A stretch of DNA of 64,000 nucleotides, taken from NCBI GenBank assembly GCA_026874595.1, contig CM049309.1, positions 53,480,079 through 53,544,078 of the forward strand, given 5' to 3'. This DNA comes from Sipunculus nudus (lineage: Eukaryota; Annelida; Sipuncula; Golfingiida; Sipunculidae). Made by a program: the position numbers and the translations under genes. The notes under the pieces were generated by a model. That model ran no database searches, was not told where the DNA came from, and was given only the letters and a program-made list of their open reading frames with translations. Of the stretch, positions 30,316-64,000 are shown one piece after another (positions within the stretch are counted from its first letter, which is position 1; each line of letters opens with the position of its first letter).

Positions 30316-31772
30316 AACTAGAATACGGGTAGTCGACAAGCAACTACGTGTATCCGCCTAAATCAGAGTGGAACGGGTGAAGTGAGGCATGGACTGAGTG
30401 GCAAGGGGAAATAGAGTGAAGTGTTGCATATTAGCATGGATGTCTGCAGCCAAATGTTGTATGTAGGTTGCGCCACCTACCACAAAATCCAGAGAGCCAT
30501 CCAAGTTGTATACATATGCAAAATTTGAGGCAGAAAAGTCAAACCACTATATGTTTATGAGTGATTTTAGCCCGTGGCAGACAAACAGATGGACGCTGTG
30601 CAAAAATGGTTGAAGGTGGCGCCACCAGTTTTGCGTATGATAAAGAGCTATGTGAGAACTATACACATGCAAAACTTTGGCCCAATCGGTCAAACGGTTC
30701 CCAAGATATGAGCTTGGATGTCTGCTGCATAAACTAGAATGCAGGTGGCGCCACCTGTCATAAAATCAAGAGAGCTGTCGGGGATGTATAAACCTGCAAA
30801 ATTTTAGGCAGATATGTCAAACCACTGCCGCGATATGAGTGATTTTATCCCATGGCAGACAAACAGACGGGAGCTGTGCAAAATGGCTGCAGGTGGTGCC
30901 ACCAGTTTTGCGTATGATAAAGAGCTATGTGAGATCTATACATATGCAAAATTTTGGCCCAATCGGTCAAACGGTTCCCAAGATATGAGCTTGGATGTCT
31001 GCAGCGTAAACGTGAATGCAGGTGGCGCCACCTGTCATAAAATCAGAAAAGCTATCTAGGATGTATACGCATGCCGAATTTCAGGTGAATTAGTCAAATC
31101 ACTGCAGAGATATGAGTGATTTTATCCCATGGCAGACAAACAGACGGGAGCTGTGCAAAAATGGCTGCAGGTGGCGCCACCAGTTTTGCGTATGATAAAG
31201 AGCTATGTGAGATCTATACACATGCAAAATTTTGGCCCAATCGGTCAAACGGTTCCCGAGATATAAGCTTGGATGTCTGCAGCGTAAACGTGAATGTAGG
31301 TGGCGCCACCTGTCATAAAATCAGAAAAGCTATCCAGGATGTATACGCATGCCGAATTTCAGGTGAATTAGTCAAATCACTGCAGAGATACGAGTGATTT
31401 TAACCCAAGGCAGACAAACAGATAGACACTGTGCAAACATGGTTGCAGGTGGCACCACCATTTTTTGTGCATGTTAAAGCTCTCCAAGGGCTACATTTGT
31501 GCAAAAAAAATTTCCTGATCGGTCAAACGGTTCCCGAGATATGTGGGTTTATGTGTGGAAACAGACGCACAAACGGACACAGAGCGCAGAGGAAAGGTCA
31601 GAGGTCAAAACAAAATCAGGGCACAGCAGTTCACATGTCACCCGAACATAATCCCGGGTTTCGTAAAATTCCGCCCAGCGGTTACGGAGGAGTTCTCCGG
31701 ACAACTACGCGGCCGCGGCGGAGGCGTGCAGCTGAAAACAGTGTATCTGCAAAATTCTGTTTTGGCGGATAC
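30316..31772 (+). mobile_element. F3 element (Helentron/HINE-like, non-autonomous)
   Basis: The 5' end reads AACTAGAATACGGG, then a small stem (GTAGT...ACTAC), then GTATCCGCC (30350-30358). The 3' end has a CGG-rich tract (about 31709-31728), the spacer 'tgcagctgaaaacagt', and a hairpin at 31743-31772 whose right arm GGCGGATAC is the exact complement of the 5' GTATCCGCC. The interior is mostly a tandem array. F2 at 60278-63168 has the same 5' tag, the same spacing to the inverted repeat and a related 3' spacer. No coding for replication proteins is present. Confidence 0.7.
30440..31540 (+). repeat. Two-part tandem array (about 277 bp per full unit) in F3
   Basis: The palindrome GGTGGCGCCACC or a one-base variant recurs at about 30465, 30615, 30744, 30893, 31021, 31170, 31299 and 31446, at alternating intervals of about 128 and 149 bp. 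The two half-units (one starting 'agttttgcgtatgataaag', the other 'tgtcataaaatcag') are distantly related: both contain a 'tatac.catgc.aaattt' string, then 'gtcaaa', then a 'gagatatgag' end. Open frames of 81 and 93 codons across the array are shadows of the repeat; I see no evidence that they are translated. Confidence 0.85.
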
Positions 31773-32929
31773 AATGACCACAGATTCCATTTGAAAACAA
31801 GAACATTTCACCCCAAAAAGCTTACATCAGGTGTTTCAATTTTTAGCATGTGTGTCTTTTATCTTTTTTTTAAACATACATATAAAGAAAGATGCTAATA
31901 CTACTGCAGCCTCTGTGGGTAATTAATCACAACTTAGCAAATATTTTACTCACACCATACAACATATTAAAATTACATCCATAAAAACTGTTATATTTTC
32001 TTGAGTTGATATACTGAGTTAACCAGCTGTCACTCTGCAAGTGCAGTAAAAAGATAACTTAAAATGTAGGTTTGTTTTATTACCTAATCTCAAGCATGTT
32101 TGGTCTGGAGGCAATGTTTATATACTTGGCTGACCTTATATTGAAATTGGGATGGTCAGATGTACACCACCCAGACCAGGATCTGGCATGTGTGGATTCC
32201 TGTTAAAGCCCCTGGGTATACACACTTTAAATTTGTGACTGTGTGCTTGACTTACCAGGGACTTATCTACCAGCCCTGCTAACAGACCTCTCAGACTGTT
32301 CAGAATCCATCCATAGATCATACAGTATCTCAAAGGTCACAGTGATGTTCAGAATACATTAGGGACTGGTTTCTTTCTCTTCCTGTTCAAGATATTCAGG
32401 ATGAGCAGTTACCCTGATTAAAATGGAAAACAAACTGAATACTGTAATTTGCATCATGTAAATACATGTATACAGCCATTATGTATTATTATATTAATAG
32501 GAAATAGGTATAGACATATCCAAGATAATGAGAAAACTGACATGGGAGTGGGTATATAACCATGATGTCTATTCGGGCTACATGTATAATCATTAGAAAA
32601 TACTCGTACAATTTTAGTAAAACAAAAGCGGTGGTAACTGGTAAGTAGACTTGAGGTAACCTGGGATTTTTTTGGGGAAGTGGAGTTTGCGGTACACAGT
32701 ATATAATTACATTTACATTAATAATTGTAATTACAGTAACCACACAGATTAACTGTAAGAATTAAATATAGTAATTACAGTGTTGTAAATTGAAATCAGT
32801 CAAGTAAAAGCAAACTCATTAGTTCACAACTGCTTTGCTATGTAACAACGGATGATCTAAATTTCCTTAAAAAGTTATGTTACTTGTCAAGTATAGAATG
32901 TGTTTTTGCCGAAATGAACAATGGCAGAC
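31773..32929. other. No feature seen
   Basis: AT-rich non-coding DNA. Confidence 0.4.
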
Positions 32930-33345
32930 TATGGCATTTTAATAGTTTTCCTGAAATAAGCCATAGATAACTAAGGCAAGTTTATGATTTTCCTGAAAAA
33001 AGCCATGAGCCCATGGCAAAATAAGCCATGGGCCCATGGCAAACTAAGGCAAGCTCATGGTTTTCCTAAAATAAGCCATGTCACACTAAGGCAAATTTAT
33101 TATTTTCCTGAAATAAACCATGGCATACTAAAAAAAGTTTATGGTTTTCCTCAAATAATCCATGTCACACTAAGGCAAGTTCATGGTTTCCCTCAAATAA
33201 GCCATGTCACACTAAGGCAAGTTAATGATTTTCCTTAAATAAGCCATGTCACACTAAGGCAAGTTAATGATTTTTTTTAAAAAGGCCAAAATACACTAAG
33301 GCAAGTTACTTGTTTTCTTGGCATGACCCTTGGCATCCTAAGGAA
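32930..33345 (+). repeat. 42-bp minisatellite, about nine imperfect copies
   Basis: The unit is roughly 'ggcaagttaatgattttcct' followed by 'taaataagccatgtcacactaa'. The 42-bp length keeps a reading frame open, which explains an 84-codon frame with a 14-residue repeat (ISHVTLRQVHGFPQ); it is not good evidence for a gene. Confidence 0.85.
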
Positions 33346-34135
33346 ACTTAATAGTTTTCCTGTAATTAAGGTTTTAATTTACTTAAACTGCAGTAAGACT
33401 AGATTAGTTATCTGGAGTAAATTACCATAGGAAAAGATGATCAAGAACAATAATCTAAAATCTTTATTAACAATAAATGAAGTCATGAAAGCAGTTTTTA
33501 TGGTTTCCCATTACTGGAAAGACTTGGATATAGAACTGTATGAACTCCATGATATTAAAAAATCTGAAGTTTTATACAAATCCTGGAAAACAAAAGAGCT
33601 GACTGCTGCAGCACCTGCGTCCCACTGAGTGCTGCAGGAATAATGCTATGTAGCTTTCTTTCCAACTGGACACGAACTGTTTATGAATTATTAAGGACAT
33701 CATTTGGTTCCATAATATCCATTCCATTAATCTTATCAAATCATACACACTTATTCTGATGTACTCATGCAGTAGGATGACTGCTTTCACAGCAGATATT
33801 TTCACAGTGAAGTTCTGTGAATTCAGCTGGTTCACTGATTAAATGGCAATCTACTTACACCAAGATGCCACAAGGGCATTACATGCGAATGCATATATAT
33901 CCCCTACACCTTCCCGGCCAGACAGATGTCCATTTGGAGTTTCAGAGGACTACTTGGCTACATGAAAGTGAAGTAACAAAAAACTCCTTGTTGGATGTGT
34001 TCTTGCTAATAAATGCTGATCTATAGACTTTGCACAATGAATCACTTGAACTGTAATGCCTAAATACACATACAGGTTTCAGGCTGATTTGGTGATATAT
34101 GAAAATGGATTACTGATATTCCAGGTTTATTTGCA
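33346..34135. other. No feature seen
   Basis: AT-rich DNA with overlapping short open frames on both strands and no recognisable product. Confidence 0.4.
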
Positions 34136-35008
34136 ACAAGTGTCTCATGGGCAATGACGCTCAGCTGAATTCAACAAACCTTGAACAATGGGTAAAATGA
34201 CTCCCAGAGAGCTCAAAATCATGCATTTTGCCAACAGAGCTTAGTTGTAGGGTACAGTCACCTTATTTTACATCCAACTGCTACCATTTTGTTCCAATCT
34301 GACTATATTTGAATGCTAAAGTCATGTTCTTTCACAAAACTCGCAGTGACCTAATTTCAGGTTTCCAAAGACAATTTTTATGGACCTCCATGGATGCTCG
34401 ATAGATGTTTCTTGGCCAAATCATCACCATTTGTACCTCATCTGACTCACTGGGTGCTTAAAAATGTTTATGGCCCATAATTTGCAAAATATAGGTCACT
34501 ATGACTTAATTTCAGGTTTCCAGGGAGAATTGCCAAGGACCTCCCTGGATGTACCTGTAGTTAAAAGTTTCTAGGTCAAAAGTTACAATTCGTGTCCTAT
34601 TAACAGCTAGACTGCTTCATAAGAAAGGGTGAAAAATAAAGAAAAATTTGAAAAAATACAGGTTGAGCCACCATTCTGCTGGAACTGATGAAACACTTCA
34701 TGATCAACATGCATGCAAGTGATCATGGTGATCAATCCATTATTTATTCAGATACTGGAGCTTTTGTATCAAATTTTTAATTATTTGGGGGGGGGGGGGT
34801 TACTTTCGAGCACCATAGCTTGGAGGATATGTAGGTCACAGTGACCTAATTTCAGGTTTCCATGGAGATTTTATGGACCTCCATGGATGATCAGTTGGAT
34901 GTTTCTAGGTTCAGCAGTTACGAATTGTGCCTTGTTAATGGCCAGACAGCCAACAAACAAATAGTGATTACTATAGCTCAGATGACTTCCCGTCAGCTGA
35001 GCTTAACA
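34136..35008 (+). mobile_element. F1 element, short copy (about 0.87 kb)
   Basis: The 5' end is acaagtgtctcatgggcaatg followed by GCTCAGCTGA (34159-34168). The 3' end is a hairpin at 34975-35003 with arms AGCTCAG/CTGAGCT. Inside are three diverged copies of a module containing 'tgacctaatttcaggtttcc', at about 34347, 34504 and 34842. The internal poly-G run (34787-34799) is typical of the family. Confidence 0.7.
34833..34847 (+). promoter_or_regulatory. Perfect estrogen-response-element palindrome
   Basis: AGGTCA-CAG-TGACCT is an exact IR3 of two nuclear-receptor half-sites, the ERE consensus. It lies in the third module of an F1 element; the second module has a one-base variant (AGGTCA-CTA-TGACTT, 34494-34508). 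Binding in this organism is untested. Confidence 0.5.
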
Positions 35009-35234
35009 CTTAAATCCAAACTAAAAATTAAAATGAAACTCATAACAGGATATAAGCCAATTTTAAAAGAAAGTAGAAATGTATGGTTTATATTTCTGAG
35101 ATTACATTACTGAGTGCCAAATAGTCTAAAGAATTTACATTATCAACACCAACCTGCTAAAATTGATTTTACAAAGCATCCTGGCAGGGTCTTCCATTAA
35201 TGAGGTGTTTTTTTAACCAGACCCAAATCCTTAA

Positions 35235-38200
35235 ACAAGGGACCCATGGGTCACGGTGCTCAGCTGATCGTGATTGGACTATAAATGTTTCTCCACTGTG
35301 ATACTATATCGAGTCGATAAAACTTATGAATATCATGTTCATGTTGGGTTATTATAAAGGAATGTAATGTAATATGTGAGTAAATGATAAATGAAATTAC
35401 CTGACTGATGGATTAAAAGAGTCAAATAAAGTGGTTTATTTTTTATTTATTTAGGAGGGGTTGAAAATTGTGATATATTTAAGCAAATATGAATGCAATG
35501 ACAGCAGTAATAAGCAGTAGTAGAATGATGATAAGGCTATTTGTTGAAGGATCTAAAGTGTATGGTAGTCTGCAAGCGTTCAATTTGACAGATATGATGT
35601 TATGATTAACTATGCTGATGAAGTGATTTATGAATATGTGACTGTATGACAGAATATCTCTTTAGTCTTGACAAGGTACATTATTGTGATGCCCACTATG
35701 TCTACATATTACACAATATTGACATAATTTCTGGCATGTACATAGGTACCTATGGACGAATAGTTATACAAAATATTAAAGTATGAATATATCTGATTCA
35801 TCTTGTTCTTGCTTACTGAGGCTGACTTTGGGATGGGGTTCGGAGAAGGGAAAAGTGAGGGCAGCACGAAAGTGGATGTAGAAATATTCTATTGTAATGT
35901 TTTTCATTTATATAAGAATATGAAAAGCTAAGAGGAAAGGGGCCCTCCTACTTGGTTATAGTAAAGTTCTAAATATATGATTGCAAACTAATACTCTGAC
36001 AAGACTGTCATGAAGAAAAACGGTAAAAGTTTTGAGATACTGTGTTGCATACGAAAATTTACAGATGGACAGGCAAGTGGACAGAATGGACTAATACCTT
36101 TATTTCACTTTCAAGAGAATAATGCATTTAAGTTTATATATAATCCTATTTTTTTAGGCAGATCCACTTTTTCCATTAAGAAGTTTTTATCTGAATCATT
36201 TACAGGTTTATAAATTTTTAATGAAAAAACCTGAAAATATAAGTTAAAATATTAGAATTGTTGCAAAAGTTGCAATCATTATATATACAGAGTAAAAACA
36301 TTGAGTCATATTATGCATACACATATATTTTATTATTTTTAAATCATAACTGTTTAAACTGATTTTAAAAGAAAATAATGCCACAACATGGCATCTACAA
36401 GAATATTCCTTGAATCACTATTAAAAAGTTTTGCACATTGGAGTTTTCAGGACATGCTTAATTTTATTCACCAAAATAAAATAAAAGTAAATTTGATAAA
36501 ATAAAACATCTTTTCAAATAAAGTATACACACTGTTGGTTGAATGAGGGACAAACAATATCATTGTGCTAATTACTATCCAAGTTTTAATTAATTACTGA
36601 AATTAATAGTCAATTAACACCTGGTGAAGTTTTTACTCTTCTGAAGTAAGGAATTACTTATCTCATGAACATCCACACTTTCACAGCAATACACCACTTT
36701 GTGGACACAATTAAATGTACACTTTAATCATTGTAACCCTGGTGGTTCAATACAAAATCTAAAATGTAGCATGTCCAAGAATAAAATAAAATACAGAAAA
36801 AATTATAACATTCATCTAGTTTATGTACCAGCTGGGGGGGGGGGGGATGAGTGCAGGGCAGAGGGGAAGCCTGCTAGTAGTGGCCAAGCTGGGCCAAGGT
36901 AAGCTGCCTGGGGTGGGTTACATAATGCAAGTGAAGGCTGTACTACTAGGTGGACTAGATGTAAACAACACTTGACATGGTGTATGAAAACATGAATAAA
37001 AGCTATTCATTCCAATCAATTTCTTTTGAAAGTTCAGATTTTAAAAGATTAAATCCTTATGCATATATACTGGGAAAATTAAATCAACAGTGCCAAAGTT
37101 GGACAAAAATTAAGGTATTGATTTTTTATTTATGCTAATAACTTGAAAAATTTGCAATATTCAGATCTAATATTGGGTAAACAATTGAATCTTGATTAAA
37201 TAAAGTTATATTCCTGAAAAAAAGTCTCTAGGTTCAGCAATTCTCATGTTAGGTGAGTAAATATATTTCCTGATTTTTTTAAAAATTGCATTATGTTTTG
37301 GCCCATAATTTCAAAATAATACCCAATACTGACCTAATTTTTGGTATGTTCATAGAAAATGTATAAAAGAATGTGAATACTAAATACAATCAAAAACAGA
37401 TCAGTTGTTTTGATATTAGGCAGCCTTTAAGTGTAACAATGGCTTTTTTTTTATGGAAAACAGAGTTTTTTTTCCTTAATATCTCAAAGGAACAAAGTCC
37501 TAATGACCCAATTTTCGGTATGGTAAGAGATTTTGGGGACATCTAAAATTATGCAACAGCCTGGGGAGCATAGAGATGTGCACTGAATGACCTACAGTGG
37601 ACTGCTTGACAATGTAAGGGAATACAACAAGAGCCTCCAAAAAAATTCAATAACTAGCCTAATTTTGCAGCTTTTATTTTCAAATTTCAGATTTTAACAG
37701 ATTAAATCCTTATGTATACATGGTGTGAAAATTAAATCCACAGTACTTACAGGAAAAAAACGTGCCATGGCCAAAGTTGGGCAAAATTTAAGGTACCAAT
37801 TTTATATTTTTGCCAATATTTAAAAAAATTTAACAAATTTTGATCTAATTTTTGGTATACAATTAAATTTTGATTAATTAAAGTTGTATTACTGGAAAAA
37901 AGTCCCTACCTTTAACACTTTTGGTCTTAAGTGACCAAATATCTTCCTGATTTTTTTATAAAGTCCATTATGTTTGGGCCCATAACTTTTTTAAATTATA
38001 TAATACTGACTTAATATCTGGCATGTACATAGGAACTATATAGAGTAATATTTATGGTAAATATGAAGAAAACCAGATGAGTGGTTCTGATATTAGGCAG
38101 TCCTGAAGTGTGAAAATAGACTTCTAATAAAAAATTGAGGTTTTTCCTTAATATCTCAAAGGAACGAAGTCCTATTGACCCAATTTTTGGCATGGTAGGA

Positions 38201-38292
38201 GATTATGGGGACATCTAACTGTATGCCGAAATTCAGATTCGTAGGTCCAACGGTGTCGAAACGTGCCAGTCTTACGGACGGACATCCAGACG

Positions 38293-38324
<32 letters not shown>

Positions 38325-38385
38325 GACGGACGACGGACAATGGACCATGACTATAGCTCAGATGACTTGTAGTCAGCTGAAAATA
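35235..38385 (+). mobile_element. F1 element, long copy A (about 3.15 kb)
   Basis: It starts acaagggacccatgggtcac then GCTCAGCTGA and ends with an ACGG-rich tract (38274-38336) and a truncated hairpin (38355-38380; the right arm stops at 'cagctga' and the CTAAAAA tail is altered). The same sequence occurs in the same orientation at 42609-45744. Two diverged modules lie at about 37085-37560 and 37765-38225. A 67-codon open frame (36010-36213) is identical in both copies, but so is the surrounding non-coding DNA, so it does not argue for a protein. A poly-G run is at 36834-36846. Confidence 0.75.
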
Positions 38386-38597
38386 TAAGCACCACTTAGA
38401 GGTCAAGGTCATTGGCCACATGAAAAAACATCATGATTTTGAAATTCTCAATTTAAAACAATTAACTACAGTATTTAAAAGCTGTATTTATTTAGCTGTA
38501 TTTGCTAACAAATACTGGAATCACCCATTCACACCTCTGCCATGTTATAAATTTTAATTTTTAAATGAAGGGCCAATTATGGCCTTCCAGTATAACT

Positions 38598-39147: not shown

Positions 39148-39194
39148 TAAATTTGGAAATGAGTGAATGTTCATATATCAAATATAAAACACCC

Positions 39195-39415
39195 TTGACT
39201 GGAGGAGGGATATGCCCCTTTATAGGATATCTAGCAGACTCCTTCATGAGGGTACACGCATTCAATCCTGTTTGTGTGTTTGTGTGTGTTTGTTCACATC
39301 ATAACACATGCAATCATGAATGGAATCTCATGAAATTTTCAGGGTATTTTAGGAACAGGCTCATGAAGAATTGATTAGATTTTGGTGTGGATCCAGCACA
39401 TGATCGAGATCAAGG
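39195..39415 (+). repeat. Decayed 'acctccgc' family repeat
   Basis: It starts 'actggaggagggatatgcccc', contains 'gtttgtgtgtttgtgtgtgtttg', then 'atgaaattttcagggtattttaggaacaggctcatgaagaattgatta'-like text and 'ttttggtgtggatcca'. This order resembles the dispersed repeat at 2488-2690. The assignment is by text resemblance only. Confidence 0.4.
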
Positions 39416-42310: not shown

Positions 42311-42608
42311 TACCTGACTTTGTATCACATTATATTGTGGCACTGGTGAATTGTTACAGCATTAAATACTGGGCTATGTCAAACCTGATCAATTCACTCT
42401 TGTGATTATCAAATGATGAAAGCAAGTACAAAAGAGAAACATGCCATTATACAGTATGTTATTAGAACATGAAATATAACTCAGCTATCCACAAAACAGT
42501 AAATAGCAAAACTTCAAACAATGCAATAACATATGACCATTATACAGAAATGATTTCTAAAATAATTCAACTGGTATGACATGGAAGTGGCCATAACTGG
42601 TCTTTAAA

Positions 42609-45600
42609 ACAAGGGACCCATGGGTCACGGCGCTCAGCTGATCGTGATTGGACTATAAATGTTTCTCCACTGTGATACTATATTGAGTCGATAAAGCTTA
42701 TGAATATCATGTACATGTTGGGCTATTATAAAGGAATGTAATGTAATATGTGAGTAAATGATAAATGAAATTACCCGACTGATGGATTAATAGAGTCAAA
42801 TAAAGTGGTATATTTTTTATTTATTTAGGAGGGGTTGAAAATTGTGATATATTTGAGCAAATATGAATGCAATGACAGCAGTAATAAGCAGTAGTAGAAT
42901 GATGATAAGGCTATTTGTTGAAGGATCTAAAGTGTATGGTAGTCTGCAAGCGTTCAATTTGACAGATATGATGTTATGATTAACTATGCTGATGAAGTGA
43001 TTTATGAATATGTGACTGTATGACAGAATATCTCTTTAGTCTTGACAAGGTACATTATTGTGATGCCCACTATGTCTACATATTACACAATATTGACATA
43101 ATTTCTGGCATGTACATAGGTACCTATGGACGAATAGTTATACAAAATATTAAAGTATGAATATATCTGATTCATCTTGTTCTTGCTTACTGAGGCTGAC
43201 TTTGGGATGGGGTTCGGAGAAGGGAAAAGTGAGGGCAGCACGAAAGTGGATGTAGAAATATTCTATTGTAATGTTTTTCATTTATATAAGAATATGAAAA
43301 GCTAAGAGGAAAGGGGCCCTCCTACTTGGTTATAGTAAAGTTCTAAATATATGATTGCAAACTAATACTCTGACAAGACTGTCATGAAGAAAAACGGTAA
43401 AAGTTTTGAGATACTGTGTTGCATACGAAAATTTACAGATGGACAGGCAAGTGGACAGAATGGACTAATACCTTTATTTCACTTTCAAGAGAATAATGCA
43501 TTTAAGTTTATATATAATCCTATTTTTTTAGGCAGATCCACTTTTTCCATTAAGAAGTTTTTATCTGAATCATTTACAGGTTTATAAATTTTTAATGAAA
43601 AAACCTGAAAATATAAGTTAAAATATTAGAATTGTTGCAAAAGTTGCAATCATTATATATACAGAGTAAAAACATTGAGTCATATTATGCATACACATAT
43701 ATTTTATTATTTTTAAATCATAACTGTTTAAACTGATTTTAAAAGAAAATAATGCCACAACATGGCATCTACAAGAATATTCCTTGAATCACTATTAAAA
43801 AGTTTTGCACATTGGAGTTTTCAGGACATGCTTAATTTTATTCACCAAAATAAAATAAAAGTAAATTTGATAAAATAAAACATCTTTTCAAATAAAGTAT
43901 ACACACTGTTGGTGCTAATTACTATCCCAGTTTTAATAAATTACTGGAATTAATAGTCAATTTAACACCAGGTGAAGTTTTTACTCTTCTGAAGTAAGGA
44001 ATTACTTATCTCATGAACATCCACACTTTCACAGCAATACACCACTTTGTGGACACAATTAAATGTACACTTTAATCATTGTAACCCTGGTGGTTCAATA
44101 CAAAATCTAAAATGTAGCATGTCCAAGAATAAAATAAAATACAGAAAATTATAACATTCATCTAGTTTATGCACCAGCTGGTGGGGGGGGGGGGGGGATG
44201 AGTGCAGTGCAGAGGAGAAGCCTGCTAGTAGTGGCCAAGCTGGGCCCTGGTAAGCTGCCTGGGGTGGGTTACATAATGCAAGTGAAGGCTGTAGGACTAG
44301 GTGGGCTAGATGTAAATAACACTTGACATGGTGTATGAAAACATGAATAAAAGCTATTCATTCCAATCAATTTCTTTTTAAAGTTCAGATTTTAAAAGAT
44401 TAAATCCTTATGCATATATGCTGGGAAAATTAAATCAACAGTGCCAAAGTTGGACAAAATTTAAGGTATTGATTTTTTATTTATGCTAATAACTTGAAAA
44501 ATTTGCAAAATTCAGATCTAATTTTGGGTAAACAATTGAATCTTGATTAAATAAAGTTATATTCCTGAAAAAAAGTCTTTAGGTTCAGCAATTCTCATGT
44601 TAGGTGAGTAAATATATTTCCTGATTTTTTAAAAAATTGCATTATGTTTTGGCCCATCACTTCAAAATAATACCCAATACTGACCTAATTTTTGGTATGT
44701 TCATAGAAAATGTATAAAAGAATGTGAATACTAAATATGATCAAAAACAGATCTGTGGTTTTGATATTAGGCAGCCTTGAAGTGTAACAATGGCTTTTTT
44801 TATGGAAAACAGAGTTTTTTTCCTTAATATCTCGAAGGAACAAAGTCCTAATGACCCAATTATGGGTATGGTAGGAGATTTTGGGGACATCTAAAATTAT
44901 GTCAACAGCCTGGGGAGCATAGAGATGTGCACTGAATGACCTACAGTCATCAAAGTGGACTGCTTGACAATGTAAGGGAATACAACAATAGCCTAAAAAA
45001 ATTCAATAACTAGCCTAATTTTGTAGCTTTTATTTTCAAATTTCAGATTTTAACAGATTAAATCCTTATGTATACATGGTGTGAAAATTAAATCCACAGT
45101 ACTTACAGGAAAAAAACGTGCCATGGCCAAAGTTGGGCAAAATTTAAGGTACCAATTTTATATTTTTGCCAATATTTAAAAAAATTTAACAAATTTTGAT
45201 CTAATTTTTGGTATACAATTAAATTTTGATAATTTAAAGTTGTATTACTGGAAAAAAGTCCCTACCTTTAACACTTTTGGTCTTAAGTGACCAAATATCT
45301 TCCTGATTTTTTTAACAAAGTCCATTATGTTTTGGCCCATAACATTTTTAAATAATAAAATACTGACTTAATATCTGGCATGTACATAGGAGCTATATAG
45401 AGGAATATTTATGGTAAATATGAAGAAAACCAGATGAGTGGTTTTGATATTAGGCAGTCCTGAAGTGTGAAAATAGATTTCTAATAAAAATTAAGGTTTT
45501 TCCTTAATATCTGAAAGGAACGAAGTCCTACTGACCCAATTTTTGGCATGGTAGGAGATTATGGGGACATCTAACTGTATGCCGAAATTCAGATTCGTAG

Positions 45601-45744
45601 GTCCAACGGTGTCGAAACGTGCCAGTCTTACGGACGGACATCCAGACGGACAGACAGACAGACGGACTGACAGACAGACGGACGGACGACGGACAATGGA
45701 CCATGACTATAGCTCAGATGACTTATAGTCAGCTGAGCTAAAAA
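42609..45744 (+). mobile_element. F1 element, long copy B (about 3.14 kb)
   Basis: It starts acaagggacccatgggtcac, including the palindrome GACCCATGGGTC (42615-42626), then GCTCAGCTGA (42632-42641). It ends with an ACGG-rich tract (45634-45695) and a complete hairpin (45711-45739; arms AGCTCAG and CTGAGCT, inner stem GACT/AGTC, loop TAT), then AAAAA. It is near-identical to copy A at 35235, with offset 7374 over the first 1.3 kb. It carries two diverged modules (about 44440-44890 and 45115-45600) and a poly-G run at 44183-44197. No transposition protein is encoded. Confidence 0.78.
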
Positions 45745-53515: not shown

Positions 53516-55949
53516 AGTTAAATACTGCAAATGACAACTGACATGGATGGATACCTAAGGGACAAGTTTGCTTCTTCAGTCAGTGCCGGTTATTTTTATG
53601 ACTTATTCATGCTTTTGTTTAACCCATATGGATATATGACCACTACAGAAGCTATGTTTTACTGTGTATTGACCAATGTCTTGTAAGTTGTATACATCAT
53701 AAGTAAACTGACCATTTTATTTAAACTGCTAATATTATCAGCTTACAATTGGCACTGAGTCATTAGTAATAGTTCTAATATCACTATGCAGGACTTATAG
53801 CTTTGTTAAAGATTACTTGCAAGAGGGGTTAATTTATCAATGTGCTCTATGGCATCATAATCCATCCCTGTATAGATACCTTCTGTCAGATACATAACCC
53901 TAACATACATACTAACCCTAACCTTTATCTGATGCCGGTAACACTGACTTGATACCTTCCAGTTACTAATATAATATTTAACATACTCATCTGTAATATA
54001 TCTAACAACTGTATATTTACATTCCTACATCAATAACCAACATAAACTATTTATCTGTGACATAAGCTTAGCCACGACACAGAATCTTGCAATAAGCAGT
54101 CAAACCTTGCAGCCTGTTATCTACAAATCCCAAAATAAAGCATGCTTCCATTCATATCCAATATAGTGATCTTATGTATTCTCTTTGATTCCCAACAGAA
54201 TTTAATCAAGGAAACATGATATACATTTCATGTCTATGCATTACATCAAGGCTGACAGCTGCAGGGTCAGGAACCAGGTTTATGATTAATAATGTAGTGG
54301 ACATCAGAGACAAATGTCCATCAGCCTTCATATGCTTTTAAGATATTAAAATTTCACTACTTTACACAGACATTTATTTTCCATGTATAGACAATATCTG
54401 TTAGTCATCCATGGTGATTAACATGTGCACTCACTTTTGAGTAGTACCTCTTGAGTAGTAGTACCCTTTCAGACTTAACCCCGGCAAGTGTTAAAGATTA
54501 CATTTACATTTCAGACAAGTTCCTTTTCATTTACATGCTGGTTCTTACATGAGAAATTTATTTCTGATTCTGTGATAAAATGTTTAAGAATTTGAATGAA
54601 CCAATGGCACATATCTGTAAGACAATTGCCAGGCAATACTTTTTCATGGCTTTCTGAACAGTTTTCTGCAGTATGCAATGCGATTATGTCATGACTTTAA
54701 GGCCTTTTAAAGGGCATACAAATCATGAAATACCCTTCCCCATTAATGATACTAAAATGTAGATAAAATGTACATTTATTGTTAAAAATATACATGTATA
54801 AGATCTGTTTAAATGATCACAGATTTTGACTTGTTCACTGTACATATCAGGGTCTAACATGAAAATTGGTAAAAAAAAATAAAAATAAATAAAAATCTAA
54901 TTGCTACCAAAGAAGGCTGTAATTTCCTGAAAGCTATTGTGAACCATGAATCATGATGAATTCATAAATGAAATATCACATGGAACAAAGATGAGAGGCA
55001 AACACAATTTCAAGTATATTTAATACATATTAAAAGCACCATTAATATTTGAAGCCAGGTGAAATATCAAGGGACTGCATGGTGATTGATGCCCACAACA
55101 GTATCACAGATGATGTTCTAAGAAATGTCTGCAGCTAACACGGGTAGTTATATAGCTCCTATAATCTTCCGAACGCACGATCAAACGACGCTCCCTGTCA
55201 CCAAAATATCTGATGAATCGGTGATCAAAGTGTCAAAAGTAGCTTTAATCTGCACTTATCCTGTCCTGTTTTACGGAACAGCCCTTCTTACCACCACATC
55301 ATCTCATCAGCAATCGGTCTTTTTCTCTTATACGGTCAAGGAAAACCTGGTGATCCTGCTTTGAAAGCTTGTTGACTGCTGCAATCTCCTTGTTACCTCC
55401 ACAGAAATTTTACCTTTGCCTGTCGTTTAAGGAGAGTCACAAAACAGGCTACAACAGGTGAAAATGTGTCACAACAATTTATACATCTAATTTCAGCAGT
55501 TAGCAAGCCAAAGAAACAGGTCTGATGAAGGACTATTTCACACAATATTTTTTTATCTGGTTTGAAGTTCAAATCAACATTTTAAAGAGACTCCTCAAAC
55601 ATCACTGTGATAAAATGGTCTTTTACACCTGTTAAAGAGTTTTATCACATCATGGTTGAAGAAGACTGAAATCTTGCCCTGTCTGATGATGTACCAGCTC
55701 ATGAAAGTTGTATCATTTACAATAGATATCAACTCTCTTTCAAATCCATCCATAACGTTTTTTTTATTATTGGGGGTCAGAACCACACATAATCACACAT
55801 GTTGATCATTGTAGGAAAATTTTATATGCAACCGTTCCTCAGATACTGCACTAGCCTTAAATATTACAGAAAGAAAACAGATTAAACAGTTGACTACATT
55901 TGTAAAATGACTACATTTTACAGATAATGCCCAACTGATTTTGAACCAA
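53516..55949. other. No confident gene; two weak coding candidates at 55.1-55.8 kb
   Basis: Mostly AT-rich. At 55125-55364 (plus) a 79-codon frame coincides with more CpG than usual here; the reverse strand of the same patch also has a short open frame. At 55595-55786 (minus) a 63-codon frame reads ...GFERELISIVNDTTFMSWYII... and ends near a possible donor (AACAG|GTGTAA), but lacks a convincing acceptor. I recognise neither product. Confidence 0.3.
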
Positions 55950-56214
55950 ACAGCCTGGGAGTCCGATAAAACAATAATTGGCTATATCAAGCACTAGTTC
56001 CGAAAAGAACTGCCTGGTAGTCAGATAAAACAATAACTGGTTAAATCAAGCACTGGTTCTGAACAGACCAGTCTGGTACAGAGCTGGCAAGATAAAACAA
56101 TACCTGACAATATCCACCACTGGCTCTGAACTGAACAGTCTGGTTGTCAGATAAAACTATCTGACTATATCAAGCACTGGCTCTGAACAGAACAGTGTGG
56201 TAGTCGGATAAAAA
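55950..56214 (+). repeat. About 60-bp minisatellite, left part
   Basis: Four to five imperfect copies of 'ctgactatatcaagcactgg' plus 'ctctgaacagaacagtctgg' plus 'tagtcagataaaacaata'. The array continues at 59244 after an F1 insertion. Confidence 0.85.
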
Positions 56215-59200
56215 ACAAGTGACCCAGGGGTCATGACGCTCAGCTGACCAGGAAGACATTGACAAAAGTAATTTTATCATCTGAATGTCAAATTTGAATG
56301 AAATACTTTTTCCAAACTTGACCTTTTGTATAAAATCATCCAATATTCATTGGGGTACTATGGAGCTCTGTAGCATGAAGGATATGGGTAACAGACACCT
56401 ATTTTCAAGGTTTACAAGATGACTTTTCAGGGGTCTCCCAGCATGTCAAAAAATAAAATTCTAGGTCCAGTTATTATGATTTGTGCCCTGTTAACAAATC
56501 CAAATGTTTATTCTGGGGGGTATTTCAAAGCCGCATAGGATGAAGGATATGGGTAACAGAGATGTAATTTCAGGTGCACAAGGCGACTTTTCAGGGGCCT
56601 CCGCGCATATCAAGAAAGGAGATTCTAGGTCAAGTCATTATAATTTGTGCTCTGTTAACAGATGACCAAATCTTTATTCTGGGGAGTACTTTGGAGTCCC
56701 AGAGCATGAAGGATATGGGTAACAGGGACCTTATTTCGGGTTTCCATGTAGACCTTTTATGGGCTTCCCTGGAGGTGAGGACAGAAGATTCTAGGTCCAG
56801 TCATTATGATTTGTGCCCTGTTAATATATGACCAAATCTTTATTCTGGGGGGTACTTCAGAGCGCCATAGCTCACAGAATATGGGTAACAGGGACCTTAT
56901 TTCGGGTTTCCATGTAGACCTTTTATGGGCTTCCCTGGAGGTGAGGACAGAAGATTCTAGGTCCAGTCATTATGATTTGTGCCCTGTTTACAGATGACCA
57001 AATGTTTAAAGATCACAAAAGTAGAGAAAAAAAATTGTAAAAAATAAAAAAAATATAGGTGGCGCCACCAATCTCCAGAAATTGATGAAACACTCCATGA
57101 TCAATATCCATGCAAAGAATCATGGTGATTAATGCATTAGTTGTTCAGATACTTGAGCTTTTGTATTAAATTTTGCATTATTCTGGGGGGTACTTCAGAA
57201 CCCCATAGCTCGACCTAATTTCAGGTTTACAAGGAGAATTTCCATAGACCTCCCAGGATTTCAAGTAAGAAGATTCCCGGTCTAGCGGTTACGATTTGTG
57301 CCCTGTTAACAGACAGACGCCTGGATGGCTGGACGGACGACGGACAAAAGGTGATTCCTACAGCTCAGATGACTTTCAGTCAGCTGAGCTAAAAATTGAA
57401 AAAATACAGGTGGCGCCACCAGAATGCAGAAACTGATGAAACATTTCCTGATCAATACCATGCAAAGAAGCATGGTGATCAATATAATAACTGTTCAGAT
57501 ACTTGAGCTTTTGTATCAAATTTTCCATTATTCTGGGGGGTACTTCGGAGCCCCATAGCTCAGAGGTTATGGGTAACAGAGACCTAATTTCAAGTTTTTA
57601 AGGAAACTTTTCATGGGCCTCTCAGCATGTCAAAAGAGAAGATTCTAGGTCCAGTTATTACGATTTGTGCCATGTTAACAGATGACTGCATCTTATGAGG
57701 TCTCAAAAATAGAGAAAAAAATTCGTAAAAATAAAAAAAAATACAGGTGGCGCCACCATACTGCAGAAACTGATGACACATTCCATGATCAATATCCATG
57801 CAAAGAATCATGGTGATCACTGCAATAGTTGTTTAGATACTTGAGCTTTTGTATCAAATTGTCCATTATTCTGAGGGATACTTCAGATGACTTACAGTCA
57901 GCTGAGCTAAAAACACTTAATGGTCAATATCCATGCAAAGAATCATGATGATCTCCGTATTAGTTGTTCAGATACTTCAGCTTTTGTATCAAATTGTCCA
58001 TTATTCTGAGGGATACTTCAGAGTCCTATAGCTTGAAGGATATGGGTAACAGAGACCTAATTTCAAGTTTCCACAGGCACTCTTCATGGGTCTCCCTGTG
58101 TGTCAAGAATGAAGATTCTAGGTCCAGTTTTTATGATTTGTGCCCTGTTAACAGATGTTCATATCTTTAAAGGTCTCAAAAATAGATAAAACATTCGTAA
58201 AAAATCAAACAATACAGGTTGCGCCACAAGTCTGCAGGAACTGATGGAACATTTCATAATCAATATGTATGCCAAAAATCATGACCATCAGTGATGTAGT
58301 TATTGAGATATTGAAGTTTTTGTATGAAATTTTTGACTACTCTGGGGGGGGGGGGGGTTACTTTGGGGTCCCATAGCTCGAAGGATATGGTTAACAGAGA
58401 CCTAATTTCTGGTTTCCAAGGATATTTTTCATGGACCTCTCAGTGTGTCAAGAATGAAGATTCTAGGTCCAGTCGTTACGATTTGTGCCATGCTAACAGA
58501 TGCCAGCATCCTTAAAGGTCTCAAAAATAGAGGAAAAAATCGTAAAAAATCGAACAATAAAGGTGGCGCCACCAGTCTGCAGGAAGTGATGGAACATCTT
58601 ATGATCAATATGCATGACAAAAATCATGACCATCAGTCAAGTATTTAATGAGATATTGATTTTCTTGTTTGAAATTTTTTACTTTTCTGGGGGATAGTTT
58701 GGGGCCCCATAGCTGGAAGGATATGGGTAACAGAGACCTAATTTCTGGTTTCAATGGAGACTTTTCATAGGTCTCTCAGTGTGTCGAGAATGAAGATTCT
58801 AAGTCCAGTCATTACGATTTGTGCCTTGTTAACAGATGTTCACATTTTTGAAGGTCTCAAAAATAGAGAAAAAAATTCGTAAAAAATCGAAAAATACAGG
58901 TGGCGCCACCAGTCTTCAGGAACTGATGGAACCTCTCATGATCAATATGTATGCCAAAAATCATGACCATCAGTCAAGTAGTTAATGAGATATTGAAGTT
59001 TTTGTATGAAATTTTGGACTTTTCTGGGGGGTACTTTGGGGCCCCATAGCTCGAAGGATATGGGTAACAGAGACCTAATTTCTGGTTTCCAAGGAGATTT
59101 TTCATGGACCTCCCAGGATGTCAAGTAAGAAGATTCCAGTTCTAGCGGTTACGATTTGTGCCCTGTTAACGGACAGACGCCCGGACGACGGACAAAAGGT

Positions 59201-59243
59201 GATCCCTATAGCTCAGATGACTTTCAGTCAGCTGAGCTAAAAA
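56215..59243 (+). mobile_element. F1 element inserted in a minisatellite, with three 3' hairpins
   Basis: The 5' end is acaagtgacccaggggtcat followed by gctcagctga. The final 3' end is the hairpin 59210-59238 then CTAAAAA. Two further F1-type 3' ends lie inside, at 57362-57390 (complete arms) and 57891-57908 (partial). The interior repeats a module containing 'gattctaggtccagt..ttacgatttgtgccctgttaacag' about ten times: first at 165-bp spacing (56620-57000), later at 335-350 bp, the longer units each carrying GGTGGCGCCACC. Open frames of 63-85 codons sharing 'NRDLISGF' arise because 165 is divisible by three. A poly-G run is at 58344-58357. Confidence 0.75.
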
Positions 59244-59525
59244 ACTGACTATATCTACCACTGGCTTTGACTGAACAGTCTGGTAGTCAGATAAAACAAT
59301 ACCTGGCTATATCAAGCACTGGCTCTGAACCAAACAGTCTGGTAGTCAGATAAAACAATACCTGACTATATCCACAACTGGCTCTGAACAGAACAGTCTG
59401 GTCGTCAGGTAAAACTATCTGACTATATCAAGCATTGGCTCTGAACAGAACAGCCAGGTAGTCAAATAAACCAATAACTGACTATATCATGCACTGATTC
59501 TGAACCACACAGCTTGGTAGTTCTG
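59244..59525 (+). repeat. About 60-bp minisatellite, right part
   Basis: Same unit as 55950-56214; the sequence resumes with 'ctgactatatctaccactgg' directly after the F1 end. Confidence 0.85.
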
Positions 59526-59977
59526 AACCAAACAGCCAAGGTAACAATACGATAAAACGACAAAAGCATTTGACTATATATAAAATCAAGTCTAAGCAAA
59601 ACGGCAAAGTAATACTGAAAAATAATTAAACATGTGGCCACCATTATAACAGTAAATGTCAAACCAAAGACAGTTTTGGATGAAATAGGGTGCGATATAT
59701 TATACAAGTAAACAGCCCTGTTCATGAAACATCTGGTCATACAGTCAATAACAACAATGATGTGGAAGGTGCCTGACTTCACCTGATGCTCAGCTCATCA
59801 CGATCAAATAACTACAGCTGTATCAATACCATCACCCTGGTATAGTTAACTGTTTGTCTCCTGGGGGAGGGGTGGTAGGTGATGCATCTTCCCAGTTACA
59901 CTGTGGGGTGATCACAATTGTGGGGTAGGCGAAAAGAAAGGTTCCACTGTAATTAAGTCTTAGTTCGTCCTATTTAA

Positions 59978-60103
59978 CAGGGCTTAACATTAACTGTCAA
60001 CCACTTGCCCGGGGCAGGTGAAAGTTCCAGAAAATTGTACAAGGGCAACTCAAAGTCACCTCCTACTTGCTCGACGGGGCAAGTGGGTCCAACATTTATA
60101 AAC
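59978..60103. mobile_element. Fragment of the CAGGGCTT short TIR element
   Basis: It starts CAGGGCTTAACATTAACTG and contains 'ccacttgcccggggcaggtg' and 'ggggcaagtggg', as in the copy at 9272-9506. The far inverted end is not visible. Confidence 0.5.
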
Positions 60104-60469
60104 CTTGTCTGTAAGGATATATGTTTATGAGGTTTTCCAAAATATTGGTCCTGTGATCAGTTTGAAGCAACCTGTCTACCCAAACTCGAGTTATCATCGA
60201 TAAACTAATTTGTGAATGGATGGGCCCTGTAAATTTGGAAACCAAGACTTCAAACTAAACTGGTGTTATCATCTGGAAACTAGACATTTCTTGGCACCGC
60301 AGGTGCCAGAGTATCCCCAGACATAGTAGGCCCCCACCCCCTTTATAAATAGACCCCCATTTTTAGCAGCATATACTGACACTTGGCATATTCATTGTTT
60401 CTTCCATCTTACAATCCACAATCTTGTTAAAGATGTTGGTCCTGTGACCTTGATCTTTTTAAAGATGTG

Positions 60470-62520
60470 TCCTGTGACCTTGACCTGTGACCTCATGACC
60501 CCAAAATCAAATCTGGTCTTGCTTTTCCAATGGGACATATGCAAGTTAAGTTTGAAATCTATACATCAATAAAGCAGGAATTATCACCAAGAAACTAATT
60601 TTTGGACAGATGGCTCCTGTGACCTTCACCTTTGACCTTAAAATTGATAGTGTTCTTCCTCTCTTATAAGGAGAACTATATGTGCAAGATGAAAGATCTG
60701 AGATGAAATGTCTGGATGAAAATGCATCCACATCTTTTTAAAGATGTGTCCTGTGACCTTGACCTTTGACCTTATCACCCCAAAATCAATTTGGGTCTTG
60801 CTTTTCCAATGGGACATATACAAGTCAAGTTTGAAATCCATACATCAATAAAAGCAGGAACTATCATCCAGAAACTAATTTTTGGACAGATGGCTCCTGT
60901 GACCTTCACCTTTGACCTTGTGACCTCACAATTGATAGGGGTCTTCCACTCTTGGCAGGTGAACTATATATGCAAGAGGAAAGATCTGAGATGAATTGTT
61001 TGGCTGAAAATGCATCTACAATCTTTTTAAAGAGGTTTCCTGTGACCTTGACCTTTGACCTCATGACCCCAAAATCAATTCAGGTCTTGCTTTTCCAATG
61101 GGTCAAATTCAAGTCAAGTTTGAAATCCATACATCAATAAAAGAAGGAATTATCATCCAGAAACTAATTTTTGGACAGATGGCTCCTGTGACCTTCACCT
61201 TTGACCTTGTGACCTCAAAATTGATAGGGTTCTTCCTCTCTTGGCAGGTGAACTATATGTGCAAGATGAAAGATCTGAGATGAATTGTTTGGCTGAAAAT
61301 GCATCCACAATCTTTTTAAAGAGGTTTCCTGTGACCTTGACCTTTGACCTCATGACCCCAAAATCAATTCAGGTCTTGCTTTTCCAAAGGGTCAAATACA
61401 AGTCGAGTTTGAAATCCATACATCAATAAAAGAAGGAATTATCATCCAGAAACTAATTTTTGGACAGATGGCTCCTGTGACCTTCACCTTTGACATTGTG
61501 ACCTCAAAATTGATAGGGTTCTTCCTCTCTTGGCAGGTGAACTATATGTGCAAGATGAAAGATCTGAGATGAAATGTTTGGCTGAAAATGCATCCACATC
61601 TTTTTAAAGGTGTGTCCTGTGACCTTGACCTTTGACCTCATAACCTCAAAATCAATTTGGGTCTTGCTTTTCCAATGGGACATATACAAGTCAAGTTTGA
61701 AATCCATACATCAATAAAAGCAGGAATTATCATCCAGAAACTAATTTTTGGACAGATGGCTCCTGTGACCTTCACCTTTGACATTGTGACCTCAAAATTG
61801 ATAGGGTTCTTCCTCTCTTGGCAGGTGAACTATATGTGCCAGATGAAAGATCTGAGATGAAATGTTTGGCTGAAAATGCATCCACATCTTTTTAAAGGTG
61901 TGTCCTGTGACCTTGACCTTTGACCTCATAACCTCAAAATCAATTTGGGTCTTGCTTTTCCAATGGGACATATACAAGTCAAGTTTGAAATCCATACATC
62001 AATAAAAGCAGGAATTATCATCCAGAAACTAATTTTTGGACAGATGGCTCCTGTGACCTTCACCTTTGACCTTGTGACCTCAAAACTGATAGGGGTCTTC
62101 CTCTATTGGCAGATGACTTACATGTGCAAGATGAAAGGTCTGAGATGAAATGTTTGGCTGAAAATGCATCCACAATCTTTTTAAAGATGTGTCCTGTGAC
62201 CTTGACCTTTGACCTCATGACCCCAAAATCAATTGGAGTCTTGCTTTTTCAATGGGACATATATAAGTCAAGTTTGAAATCAATACATCAATAAAAGCAG
62301 GAATTATCATCCAGAAACTAATTTTTGGACAGATAGCTCCTGTGGCCTTGACCTCTGACCTTTTGACCCAAAAAGGTATATGGATCATCCACTACTGGCA
62401 AGTGAGCTATATATTCAAGATGGAAGACCTAAGATGAAAGTTTGGCTTAAAATGCATCCACAGTATCTTTTAAAATGCCAGTCCAGTGACCTTGACCTTT
62501 GACCTCATGACCCTAGAACC
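60470..62520 (+). repeat. 289-bp tandem array, about seven copies
   Basis: 'tttggacagatggctcctgt' occurs at 60601, 60891, 61170, 61459, 61747 and 62035, with a variant at 62324; most intervals are 288-290 bp. Each unit has two related halves, one with 'tgaccttgacctttgacct', the other with 'tgaccttcacctttgacctt'. Open frames of 60-67 codons on both strands repeat with the unit and are not credible genes. Confidence 0.9.
60754..60772 (-). promoter_or_regulatory. Triple nuclear-receptor half-site (DR0 + DR1), first of eight
   Basis: TGACCTTGACCTTTGACCT contains three AGGTCA half-sites on the minus strand spaced as DR1 and DR0. Exact copies recur at 61043, 61332, 61620, 61908, 62197, 62487 and 63626. 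DR1 is the classical RXR, HNF4 and COUP-TF site type. Binding is inferred from motif only. Confidence 0.45.
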
Positions 62521-63106
62521 TATAGGGTTCTTACTTTAGTGGTGGGCCATACATAAGTCATGTTTGAAATCCATATGGCTATCAACACTGGAGATATCAT
62601 AAGAGGTGTGTGATTTTCACCATATATGGCAATATTCAAGGTCAAGGCCACTATCATAGGAAAGGTCATGACCCCAATTTAAATAAACATCATCCCATAA
62701 CCCATACCTATGTATATGCATAATATAAAAGAAATCTGTCCATTAGTTTTTGACTTATAATGCTTACAGTACTATAAGGTGGCAATTTTGGGGGTATTAA
62801 ACGGCACAAAAACAAGTAAAGAATAATAGGTGGCGCCACCAGTTTCTGGAACATGACAACCCTATCCATGATCTTCCATCAACTTGATTTTGGGATAAAT
62901 CCATGCAAGATTTCTTGAGATATTAAAGAATTTGTGTGATTTTCCCCAAAATTGGACCTATTCAAGGTCAAGGACACTCTCCTAGTAAAGGTCATGACCT
63001 CATTTTAAATAGGCGTCGTCCTCTCACCCATATCTATACATATACCAAGTTTGGTAAAGTTCCGTGAAATATTTTTTGGGTTATCGCGCCAACAAGATTT
63101 ATATGC

Positions 63107-63121
63107 GGCGGCGGCGGCGGC
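63107..63121 (+). repeat. (CGG)n tract
   Basis: About five CGG repeats just inside the 3' end of F2, in the same relative place as the CGG-rich tract of F3 and the ACGG tract of F1. Confidence 0.85.
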
Positions 63122-64000
63122 GGGACCGGTATGAAAACATAGTATCCCCCGACTTTGTCTGGGGATACAACTAATATGTGGATTGATGGCCCCCATGACC
63201 TTGACCTTGTGACCCCAAAATCCATCAGTTACTTCAACTATTGGCAGGTGAGCAACATCTGGAAGATAGAATGTTTGGGACAGAAAGTTTGGCTAAAAAT
63301 ATATCAACAATCTTTTTAAAGAGGTGGGTCCTGTGACCTTGACCTTTGGCCCTATGACCACAAAATCAAAAGGGTTCTTACATTATTAGTGGGTCATATA
63401 TAAGTCAAAATTGAAACCAATATGTCAATCCAAACTGGAGTTATCATCCAGAAACAAATGTGTGGACAGATGGGGCCCTGTGATGATGACCTTTGACCTT
63501 GTGACCCCCATATCAATCAGTTTCTTCCCGTATTGGCAGCTCAGCTATATGTGCAAGATGCAAGGTTTTGGATGAAAAGTTTGGCTTAAAATGCATCCAT
63601 AATCTTTCTAAATAAGTGGGTACTGTGACCTTGACCTTTGACCTCATGACTCCAAAATGGAACAGAATCTTCCCCTATTGGCAGGTTAACGATATCTTGA
63701 AGATTGAAGGTTTGGGATGAAAAGTTTGGCTTCAAATGCATATGCATTCTTTTTAAAGAATTGACAAAGCGCCATTCCTATACCTCAGTTGACTTAGAGT
63801 CAGCTGAGCTAAAAACTAAGAGATGAGCCATCCAAACCTAACTTTTCTCCCTAGCCAATATATAACCTGGGGCAACGAAATGCTTTCATTTCTCCTCACC
63901 AAGCTTAAAAGTTACCGCCAGTTTTTATTCTATCCCTGCCAGGCTTTATCATCTAATAAAATAATAATATTAATAGTTACATAGAAAAGAATCATTAATC

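Follow-up and report, generated by a model that had tools for sequence, protein, structure and literature searches.

A stretch of 64,000 nucleotides of the Sipunculus nudus genome (contig CM049309.1, positions 53,480,079 to 53,544,078 of the forward strand; hereafter the window, numbered from its first letter) carries interspersed elements of three families, designated F1, F2 and F3. Both in identity and in type of mobilisation these elements are very probably HINEs, the non-autonomous Helentrons of the Helitron2 branch. As far as sequence can show, F1 was moved by an endonuclease-bearing Rep-helicase (RepHel) Helentron, which is still present in the genome with the same ends. Helentron-type mobilisation had been proposed in a first-pass annotation made from the letters of the window, and is supported by the presence of RepHel-endonuclease elements with both F1 ends. 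The enzymatic steps, as well as the orientation and the partner of F2 and F3, we infer.

Autonomous Helentrons with the ends of F1

The genome gave 143 Rep matches, and windows or slices were examined at 37 loci, i.e., six 10-kb slices, each at a RepHel gene with a long open frame, and 31 downstream windows of 2.4 kb (17 + 14). The check suggested in the first-pass annotation, a search for an autonomous Rep/helicase element with the same ends, was successful for F1: on each of three chromosomes (C17, C5 and C1) an element of about 15-16 kb carries F1 ends on both sides of the Rep match. The C17 element, for which the sequence is complete, measures about 14.9 kb from the first 5′ hairpin to the terminal CTTGTT (3641 to about 18524 of the joined stretch). 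Its open frame of 2342 amino acids includes DUF6570, Helitron_like_N and PIF1 domains. A C-terminal Exo_endo_phos domain scored 24.9 against a cut-off of 24.5 when the last 300 residues were scanned alone and fell below the cut-off in the whole protein; in a close relative, L005, Exo_endo_phos_2 was above the cut-off. A PDB sequence search with the endonuclease part retrieved no endonuclease. The C5 (L058/L022) and C1 (L059/L025) copies share with C17 both upstream 5′ hairpins as well as the downstream 3′ end. By coordinates they measure about 16 kb, the Rep matches lying between the ends, and the sequence obtained covers the ends and part of the middles. Since the outer flanking sequence differs, the three copies represent separate insertions. 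Within the window, positions 56733-57884, inside the F1 element F1b, align over 1173 bp, with 91.8% identity, to the sequence that follows the 5′ hairpins of C17.

Downstream of Rep, F1-type 3′ ends were observed on the coding strand in 10 of the 31 windows, on the other strand in one, and on neither strand in 20. With the C17 slice added, an F1 3′ end in the right orientation is present at 11 of the 37 Rep loci, and none was seen in the other five slices. L020 and L021 are identical also outside the end, as far as compared, and are thus not independent.

The RepHel elements of family A (L001-L004) were rejected as partners, no F1, F2 or F3 end being detected in their slices or in windows L012-L019. 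OTU and endonuclease domains were detected in the two family A proteins scanned. The extra N-terminal parts of the RepHel proteins (L001, L004, L005 and L006) comprise an OTU protease (family A), a herpes-tegument-N-like domain (C17 family) and tandem peptide repeats.

Orientation and organization of the termini

The terminal design that the first-pass annotation had described as common to F1, F2 and F3 was confirmed, with its 5′ and 3′ ends swapped, as judged from the F1 ends around the C17 RepHel gene. About 1 kb behind the C17 stop lies the reverse complement of the F1 tag, TCAGCTGAGC ATC ATGACCCATGGGTCA CTTGTT, and two F1 hairpins in matching orientation are located 6-7 kb upstream of the open reading frame (ORF), with no F1 hairpin within 2.6 kb upstream. 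Because the F1 ends flank the RepHel gene, the orientation of F1 is fixed: the tag is the 3′ end and the hairpin the 5′ end. What had been named the 5′ tag thus reads as the 3′ end of a Helentron (Helitron2), with subterminal repeat, hairpin and CTWGTT, and the former 3′ hairpin as the 5′ end, its outer arm being the other subterminal repeat. For F2 and F3 we infer the same orientation from the anatomy shared with F1.

In the Helentron sense, which is the minus strand of the window, the order is a T-run, the terminal hairpin with the 5′ repeat as its outer arm, a G+C-rich tract (GTCC-like in F1 and CCG-like in F2 and F3), tandem repeats, the 3′ repeat, a hairpin and CTWGTT. The 3′ repeat is the reverse complement of the 5′ outer arm. 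This subterminal inverted repeat (subTIR) is at least 10 bases long in F1, 12 in F2, and 9 in the F3 of the window and 13 in that of L030, in agreement with the approximately 11-15 bp of Helentrons and HINEs; also as in those elements, an inner 5′ repeat is complementary to the 5′ subterminal repeat, and a palindrome follows the 3′ repeat. From the end of the 3′ repeat to the end of CTWGTT there are 24 (F1), 33 (F2) and 34 (F3) bases. The spacing of 28-29 bp between tag and repeat reported earlier was measured as 26 (F2) and 27 (F3) bases from the tag end. The 5′ terminal hairpins, reported earlier as 3′ hairpins, are present, but imperfect owing to a defective inner arm, and in the F3 of the window a G.T pair occurs besides the bulge. 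An unbiased scan of the window detected the combination of 5′ hairpin, downstream repeat and CTWGT on the minus strand only.

Copy-level counts, here and below, are regional, being drawn from the first 100 places per pattern, nearly all on C1. Among the 100 F1 tags listed, as judged by eye, the 3′ palindrome showed a two-sided (compensated) form, GGCCCATGGGCC, in four and a one-sided change in two. Some F1-type 3′ ends (L024, L065, L067 and L073) terminate in CTAGT as do F2 and F3, instead of CTTGT, and in L024, L065 and L073 the 3′ hairpin is altered on both arms to GGCCCATGGGCC. At L026 (1285-1360) a single RepHel gene is followed by two F1-type 3′ ends of different subfamilies, no more than 45 bp apart, which form a nested or composite end.

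Frequency of the terminal motifs

The motifs named in the first-pass annotation were located where it had placed them and at frequencies far above chance. The F2 12-mer GTATCCCCAGAC lies at 60311-60322 (+) and 63157-63168 (−), with a one-mismatch copy at 63142-63153, making three matches in the 64-kb window against 0.07 expected at up to one mismatch. The F3 repeat GTATCCGCC is present at 30350-30358 (+) and 31764-31772 (−), with 0.03 expected, while the F1 motifs GCTCAGCTGA and GACCCATGGGTC gave 12 matches (0.06 expected) and five matches at up to one mismatch (0.11 expected), respectively. The exception is AACTAGA, which had been listed as a shared start: with 13 matches against 10.1 expected, it is meaningful only in combination with the repeat.

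The whole genome of 1.43 Gb was searched on both strands (counts are forward + reverse), with each pattern read backwards as the control. The F2 12-mer was found 4492+4480 times (control 22+29), the repeat GTATCGCCAGAC of an F2 sublineage, F2′, 834+839 times (control 10+11), and the F2/F3 hairpin pattern 3682+3720 times (control 3+5). For F1 there were 6062+5988 = 12,050 exact matches of the tag and 12789+12450 = 25,239 of the hairpin, a few of the latter counted on both strands, with controls of 0+0 for both. The F2/F3 tag pattern gave 10275+30572 matches (control 1533+644), counts that are inflated by its variable gap.

Agreement between the two ends

For pairing of the ends, F2/F3 hairpins up to 3.3 Mb were set against unique tags, and among the matches listed 30 hairpins and 67 tags yielded 20 pairs. 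Both ends belonged to the same family in all 20 (6 F2 and 14 F3; Fisher p = 2.6e-5, counting copies, not events), and in 16 they matched perfectly over 9 bases. In the F2′ sublineage, the first 100 places include 64 that combine into 32 convergent pairs at distances of up to 3.5 kb, with no divergent pair. In the stretch common to both lists, the F2′/F2 end pairs were C/C in 25 cases, G/G in 7 and mixed in 2 (p = 1.2e-5). Since C/C and G/G pairs predominate, both ends of the F2′ source differ from F2 alike, and this paired change is one inherited event. The covariation of ends suggested at first pass therefore holds between families and for F2′, but not for the scattered mutations of single copies. 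Strict covariation is contradicted by L032, L033, the F2 variant 2097k and an F3-like insert of the autonomous elements. The further suggestion that pairing between ends is selected is plausible in view of the family-matched repeats and the F2′ double change, but is not proven by a single event together with four imperfect pairs that are uncompensated.

Variants of the F3 tag (GCAGAAA, CCACAAATT and others) were checked upstream for matching 5′ hairpins. None was detected in the first slice for seven tags of the GCAGAAA or CCACAAATT type (L031, L034-L037, L039 and L041). In longer stretches at six loci (740k, 770k, 2059k, 971k, 444k and 2097k), 2097k alone had such a hairpin, which matched at 11 of 12 bases. 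The variant 3′ ends may travel within larger composite elements as passengers.

The F3-like element lies upstream of the RepHel gene in all three autonomous F1-type Helentrons (C17, 863-1724 of the shorter slice; L058, 6292; L059, 6137). In C17 it is about 70% identical to the F3 of the window, and its own ends no longer match well. Among the C1 matches listed, an F1 'ACAAGTG' tag stands shortly before an F3 tag at eight places, at seven of them by 179-182 bases (for example 330372/330551, 474386/474568 and 828320/828499). Apparently there is an F1 subfamily that contains an F3 3′ end close to its own and that spread with it as a unit.

A defect in the 5′ hairpin and predicted pairing between the ends

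In the typical copy of F1, F2, F2′ and F3, the inner arm of the 5′ hairpin has one defect, while the outer arm matches the 3′ repeat perfectly. The counts depend on the patterns used, which require parts of the hairpin. For F1 (outer arm GCTCAGCTGACT, inner arm AGTCATCTGAGC), none of the 96 distinct hairpins among the 100 rows listed (four appeared on both strands) was perfect, and 94 had the same base at repeat position 7. The F2 hairpin has its mismatch at position 9, one of the 36 F2-type rows listed being perfect, and the F3 inner arm is one base short (a bulge at 9), with no perfect hairpin among 64 F3-type rows listed, both as judged by eye. In F2′ the position-9 defect is gone and the mismatch is at position 6; 96 of the 100 rows listed read GTCTGGAGATAC, and none was perfect. 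In the three autonomous copies, each of the six 5′ hairpins is mismatched at position 7, in one case with a different base. Among the 12789+12450 F1 hairpins of the genome, 53+62 were perfect, some counted twice, and 151+166 had one other mismatch. Selection against the perfect hairpin was considered from this difference, which is suggestive only, the third base being uncounted and no mutation-rate control included.

Because the hairpin is defective and the outer arm and 3′ repeat match perfectly, pairing from end to end is predicted to be stronger than the 5′ hairpin. With DNA parameters, the energies (kcal/mol) of the hairpin, the defect-free hairpin and the duplex of outer arm and 3′ repeat were −8.3, −13.2 and −13.1 for F1; −8.8, −11.7 and −14.1 for F2; −8.2, −12.5 and −14.9 for F2′; and −10.0, −14.7 and −15.9 for F3, the duplex values leaving out the cost of bringing the ends together. 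For Helitron2, pairing of the two repeats was proposed to open the 5′ hairpin (PMC3627910; this and the other publications are cited from the accessible parts of their texts). The energies fit this published idea, and add that the hairpin is the weaker partner.

Site of insertion

The F2 element (60278-63168) is inserted in a tandem array related to its own. In the Helentron sense its flanks are CACATATTAGTT before and TCCAGATGATAACACC after the element, and copies of the array in the window read ATTAGTTTCTGGATGATAA or near variants. Since the flanks rejoin to such array copies with only the number of Ts ambiguous, F2 entered a T-run without duplication beyond the Ts, whose assignment to element or target is likewise ambiguous; the same T ambiguity was discussed for DINE-1 (PMC2374699). 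The mapping of empty sites recommended earlier thus yielded one clean site, with a T-run insertion, and the long target duplication that would speak for another mechanism was not seen at this single site. No cut-and-paste partner was seen, although no search for other kinds of transposase genes was made.

Elements of the window

All elements lie on the minus strand. F2, identified by its motifs and the empty site, has its 5′ end at 63168 and its 3′ end at 60278, with tandem repeats between. Its 5′ terminal hairpin occupies 63142-63168, of which 63157-63168 form the outer arm, or 5′ subTIR, and the inner arm has one mismatch, at repeat position 9; the 3′ end (60278-60322) comprises the 3′ subTIR at 60311-60322, the hairpin GGCACC/GGTGCC and TCTAGTT. 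The F3 element, also a HINE, extends over 30316-31772 with an array of 278-bp repeats at 30428-31465. Its 5′ terminal hairpin (31743-31772) has the outer arm at 31764-31772 and, in this copy, an inner arm one base short with a G.T pair, while the 3′ end (30316-30358) contains the 3′ subTIR at 30350-30358, a hairpin and TCTAGTT.

F1 is represented by F1b (56214-59238; 3′ end tag 56214-56247, outermost 5′ hairpin 59211-59237, inner hairpins ending at 57907 and 57389) and by two F1a elements. One of the latter (42608-45739) has the 3′ end tag at 42608-42641, an ACGG/ACAG tract at 45630-45695 and the 5′ hairpin at 45712-45738; the other (35234-38380) has the tag at 35234-35267, and its 5′ end near 38380 is placed from similarity only. 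A short F1 element (34135-35003) has the tag at 34135-34168 and a 5′ hairpin ending at 35002, and a further F1 element beyond the range of the first-pass annotation (10888-14230) has the tag at 10888-10921 and a 5′ hairpin ending at 14229.

Multiple 5′ hairpins in series were observed, three in F1b (57389, 57907 and 59237) and two in each autonomous copy, 0.7-1.1 kb apart (C17, 3641/4365; L058, 918/1998; L059, 760/1822). Alternative start points combined with one 3′ end could give nested element lengths. At C1:1407723-1422081, five F2 elements stand head to tail in the same orientation with short spacers, a cluster that is the product of either rolling circle or duplication.

Comparison with known Helentrons

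The families share with the Cg_HINE and Pearl-type elements of bivalves, as described for the oyster Crassostrea gigas, a 5′ repeat with complementary inner arm, a left-flank microsatellite (GTCY/GTCC/GTCK), central satellite-like repeats, a 3′ repeat followed by a palindrome, and insertion at T-rich sites (PMC7492417). They differ in sequence, and the two repeats of the oyster elements are often one base apart; moreover, the authors of that study were unable to relate any autonomous Helentron to the oyster HINEs, whereas F1 is tied to RepHel by both ends. Common to Helentrons and to HINE/DINE-1 are a Rep-helicase-endonuclease source, subterminal repeats, a 3′ stem-loop, TT insertion with T ambiguity and non-autonomous copies outnumbering the source (PMC4067079, PMC2374699). 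A further similarity is that the 5′ inner repeat of DINE-1 was termed partially complementary in these sources. The present families differ in that their terminal hairpin has the 5′ repeat as its outer arm, and in that the F1 sources have two 5′ hairpins about 0.7-1.1 kb apart.

Helitron2 elements with asymmetric terminal inverted repeats likewise have the 5′ repeat in the terminal hairpin and, at 20-30 bp from the other terminus, a 3′ repeat that precedes a hairpin; compensatory changes were reported in two Culex elements (PMC3627910). Covariation and pairing of end repeats are thus already published for Helitron2, of which F1, F2 and F3 are new members. New, as far as the literature searched shows, are the link of a HINE family by both ends to a full-length source, the paired F2′ change and the one-defect regularity; a kept hairpin defect against a perfect end-to-end match was not found described in the accessible part of PMC3627910, and the literature searched, by titles and partial texts, described neither the hairpin defect nor an autonomous bivalve partner. 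With canonical Helitron1 and Helraiser, Rep-helicase, 3′ hairpin and lack of target duplication are common, as would be the circle intermediate (PMC5876387), which is presumed for the present elements. Unlike Helitron1, there is neither a 5′ TC start nor an AT target, a 5′ hairpin follows the T-run, and the target of F2 is a T-run. F2, F3 and some F1-type ends nevertheless read CTAG before the final T.

Proposed mechanism and alternative explanations

By analogy with known Helitrons, Rep would nick at the T-run before the 5′ hairpin, and one strand would be peeled off and replaced. The 3′ hairpin would mark the stop, and the ends would be joined into a circle for insertion into another T-run. 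On the displaced strand, with roughly even chances, the 3′ repeat might oust the imperfect inner arm and thereby keep the two ends together for strand transfer.

Several observations weigh against these interpretations. Twenty of the downstream windows lack an F1 end on either strand, and no F1 end was detected in windows L012-L019, which belong to the family with the strongest intact long ORFs. F2/F3-type ends were found in none of the 31 downstream windows, and none was seen in the six RepHel slices. With respect to the pairing of ends, four of the 20 pairs have unmatched ends and none is compensated, as is expected of dead copies, and L032 and L033 are F3 variants in which the 3′ repeat is changed and the 5′ hairpin unchanged, leaving one mismatch between the ends. 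The junction of F1b in a 59-bp array is T-rich, and not a clean empty site. One could suppose from the density of F1 3′ tags (12,050 exact matches), and from the one window with an F1 end in the wrong orientation, that F1 ends are chance neighbours of RepHel genes and that the true partner is different. However, the number of exact coding-strand matches expected in the 31 downstream windows (2.4 kb each) is about 0.3, whereas F1 ends were observed in 10 windows, and on the other strand in one (with a somewhat looser search expression), and three loci have both ends in the same order within different outer flanks, making such coincidence very improbable. Slighter still is the probability of cut-and-paste transposition in the manner of miniature inverted-repeat transposable elements (MITEs), by a DDE-type transposase with TT as a 2-bp target duplication. 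The inverted repeats near both ends would suit it, and the T ambiguity at the F2 site is compatible with a TT duplication, once discussed for DINE-1 (PMC2374699). In contrast to MITEs, the 3′ repeat lies inside the element with a further hairpin behind it, the one F2 site shows no duplication apart from the ambiguous Ts, and F1 ends flank RepHel genes.

Within the Helentron interpretation, it is an evenly balanced question whether chance features of the family sources, passed on by descent, account for both the matching ends and the hairpin defects, with selection for neither end pairing nor imperfection. The identity of the defect base in 94 of the 96 distinct F1 hairpins listed is as a founder would give, perfect hairpins exist in F1 (the 53+62, some counted twice) and in one of the 36 F2 rows listed, and changes in single copies are uncompensated. 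In addition, the repeats of oyster HINEs often differ by one base (PMC7492417), and Fusarium Helitron2 elements were shown with short perfect 5′ hairpins (PMC5148889). Against mere inheritance, the typical copy carries a single defect in each of four lineages, at positions 7, 9 and 6 and as a bulge at 9, and the inner arm is affected in every case; in F2′ the site of the F2 defect is paired and a new defect is present at a site that is paired in F2, with both end repeats in agreement; and one of the six autonomous hairpins has a different mismatched base at the F1 position. The one-defect regularity may nevertheless reflect a founder effect, since the sample is small: four lineages from a single genome, of which two are closely related. 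A metastable switch, which we propose tentatively and consider rather unlikely, would have the hairpin kept one base short of perfection, so that its inner arm gives way to the 3′ repeat and the latter links the two termini of the displaced strand. In that case the repeat would serve as an address for 5′/3′ joining; it could change solely by simultaneous alteration of the two ends, as in F2′, and the defect would turn up at another place in the inner arm.

The tie between the abundant F1 HINE family and full-length RepHel elements makes source and passengers comparable and testable. If it is true of other genomes, the one-defect rule would turn an old printed suggestion into a testable mechanism of strand displacement with predicted energies.

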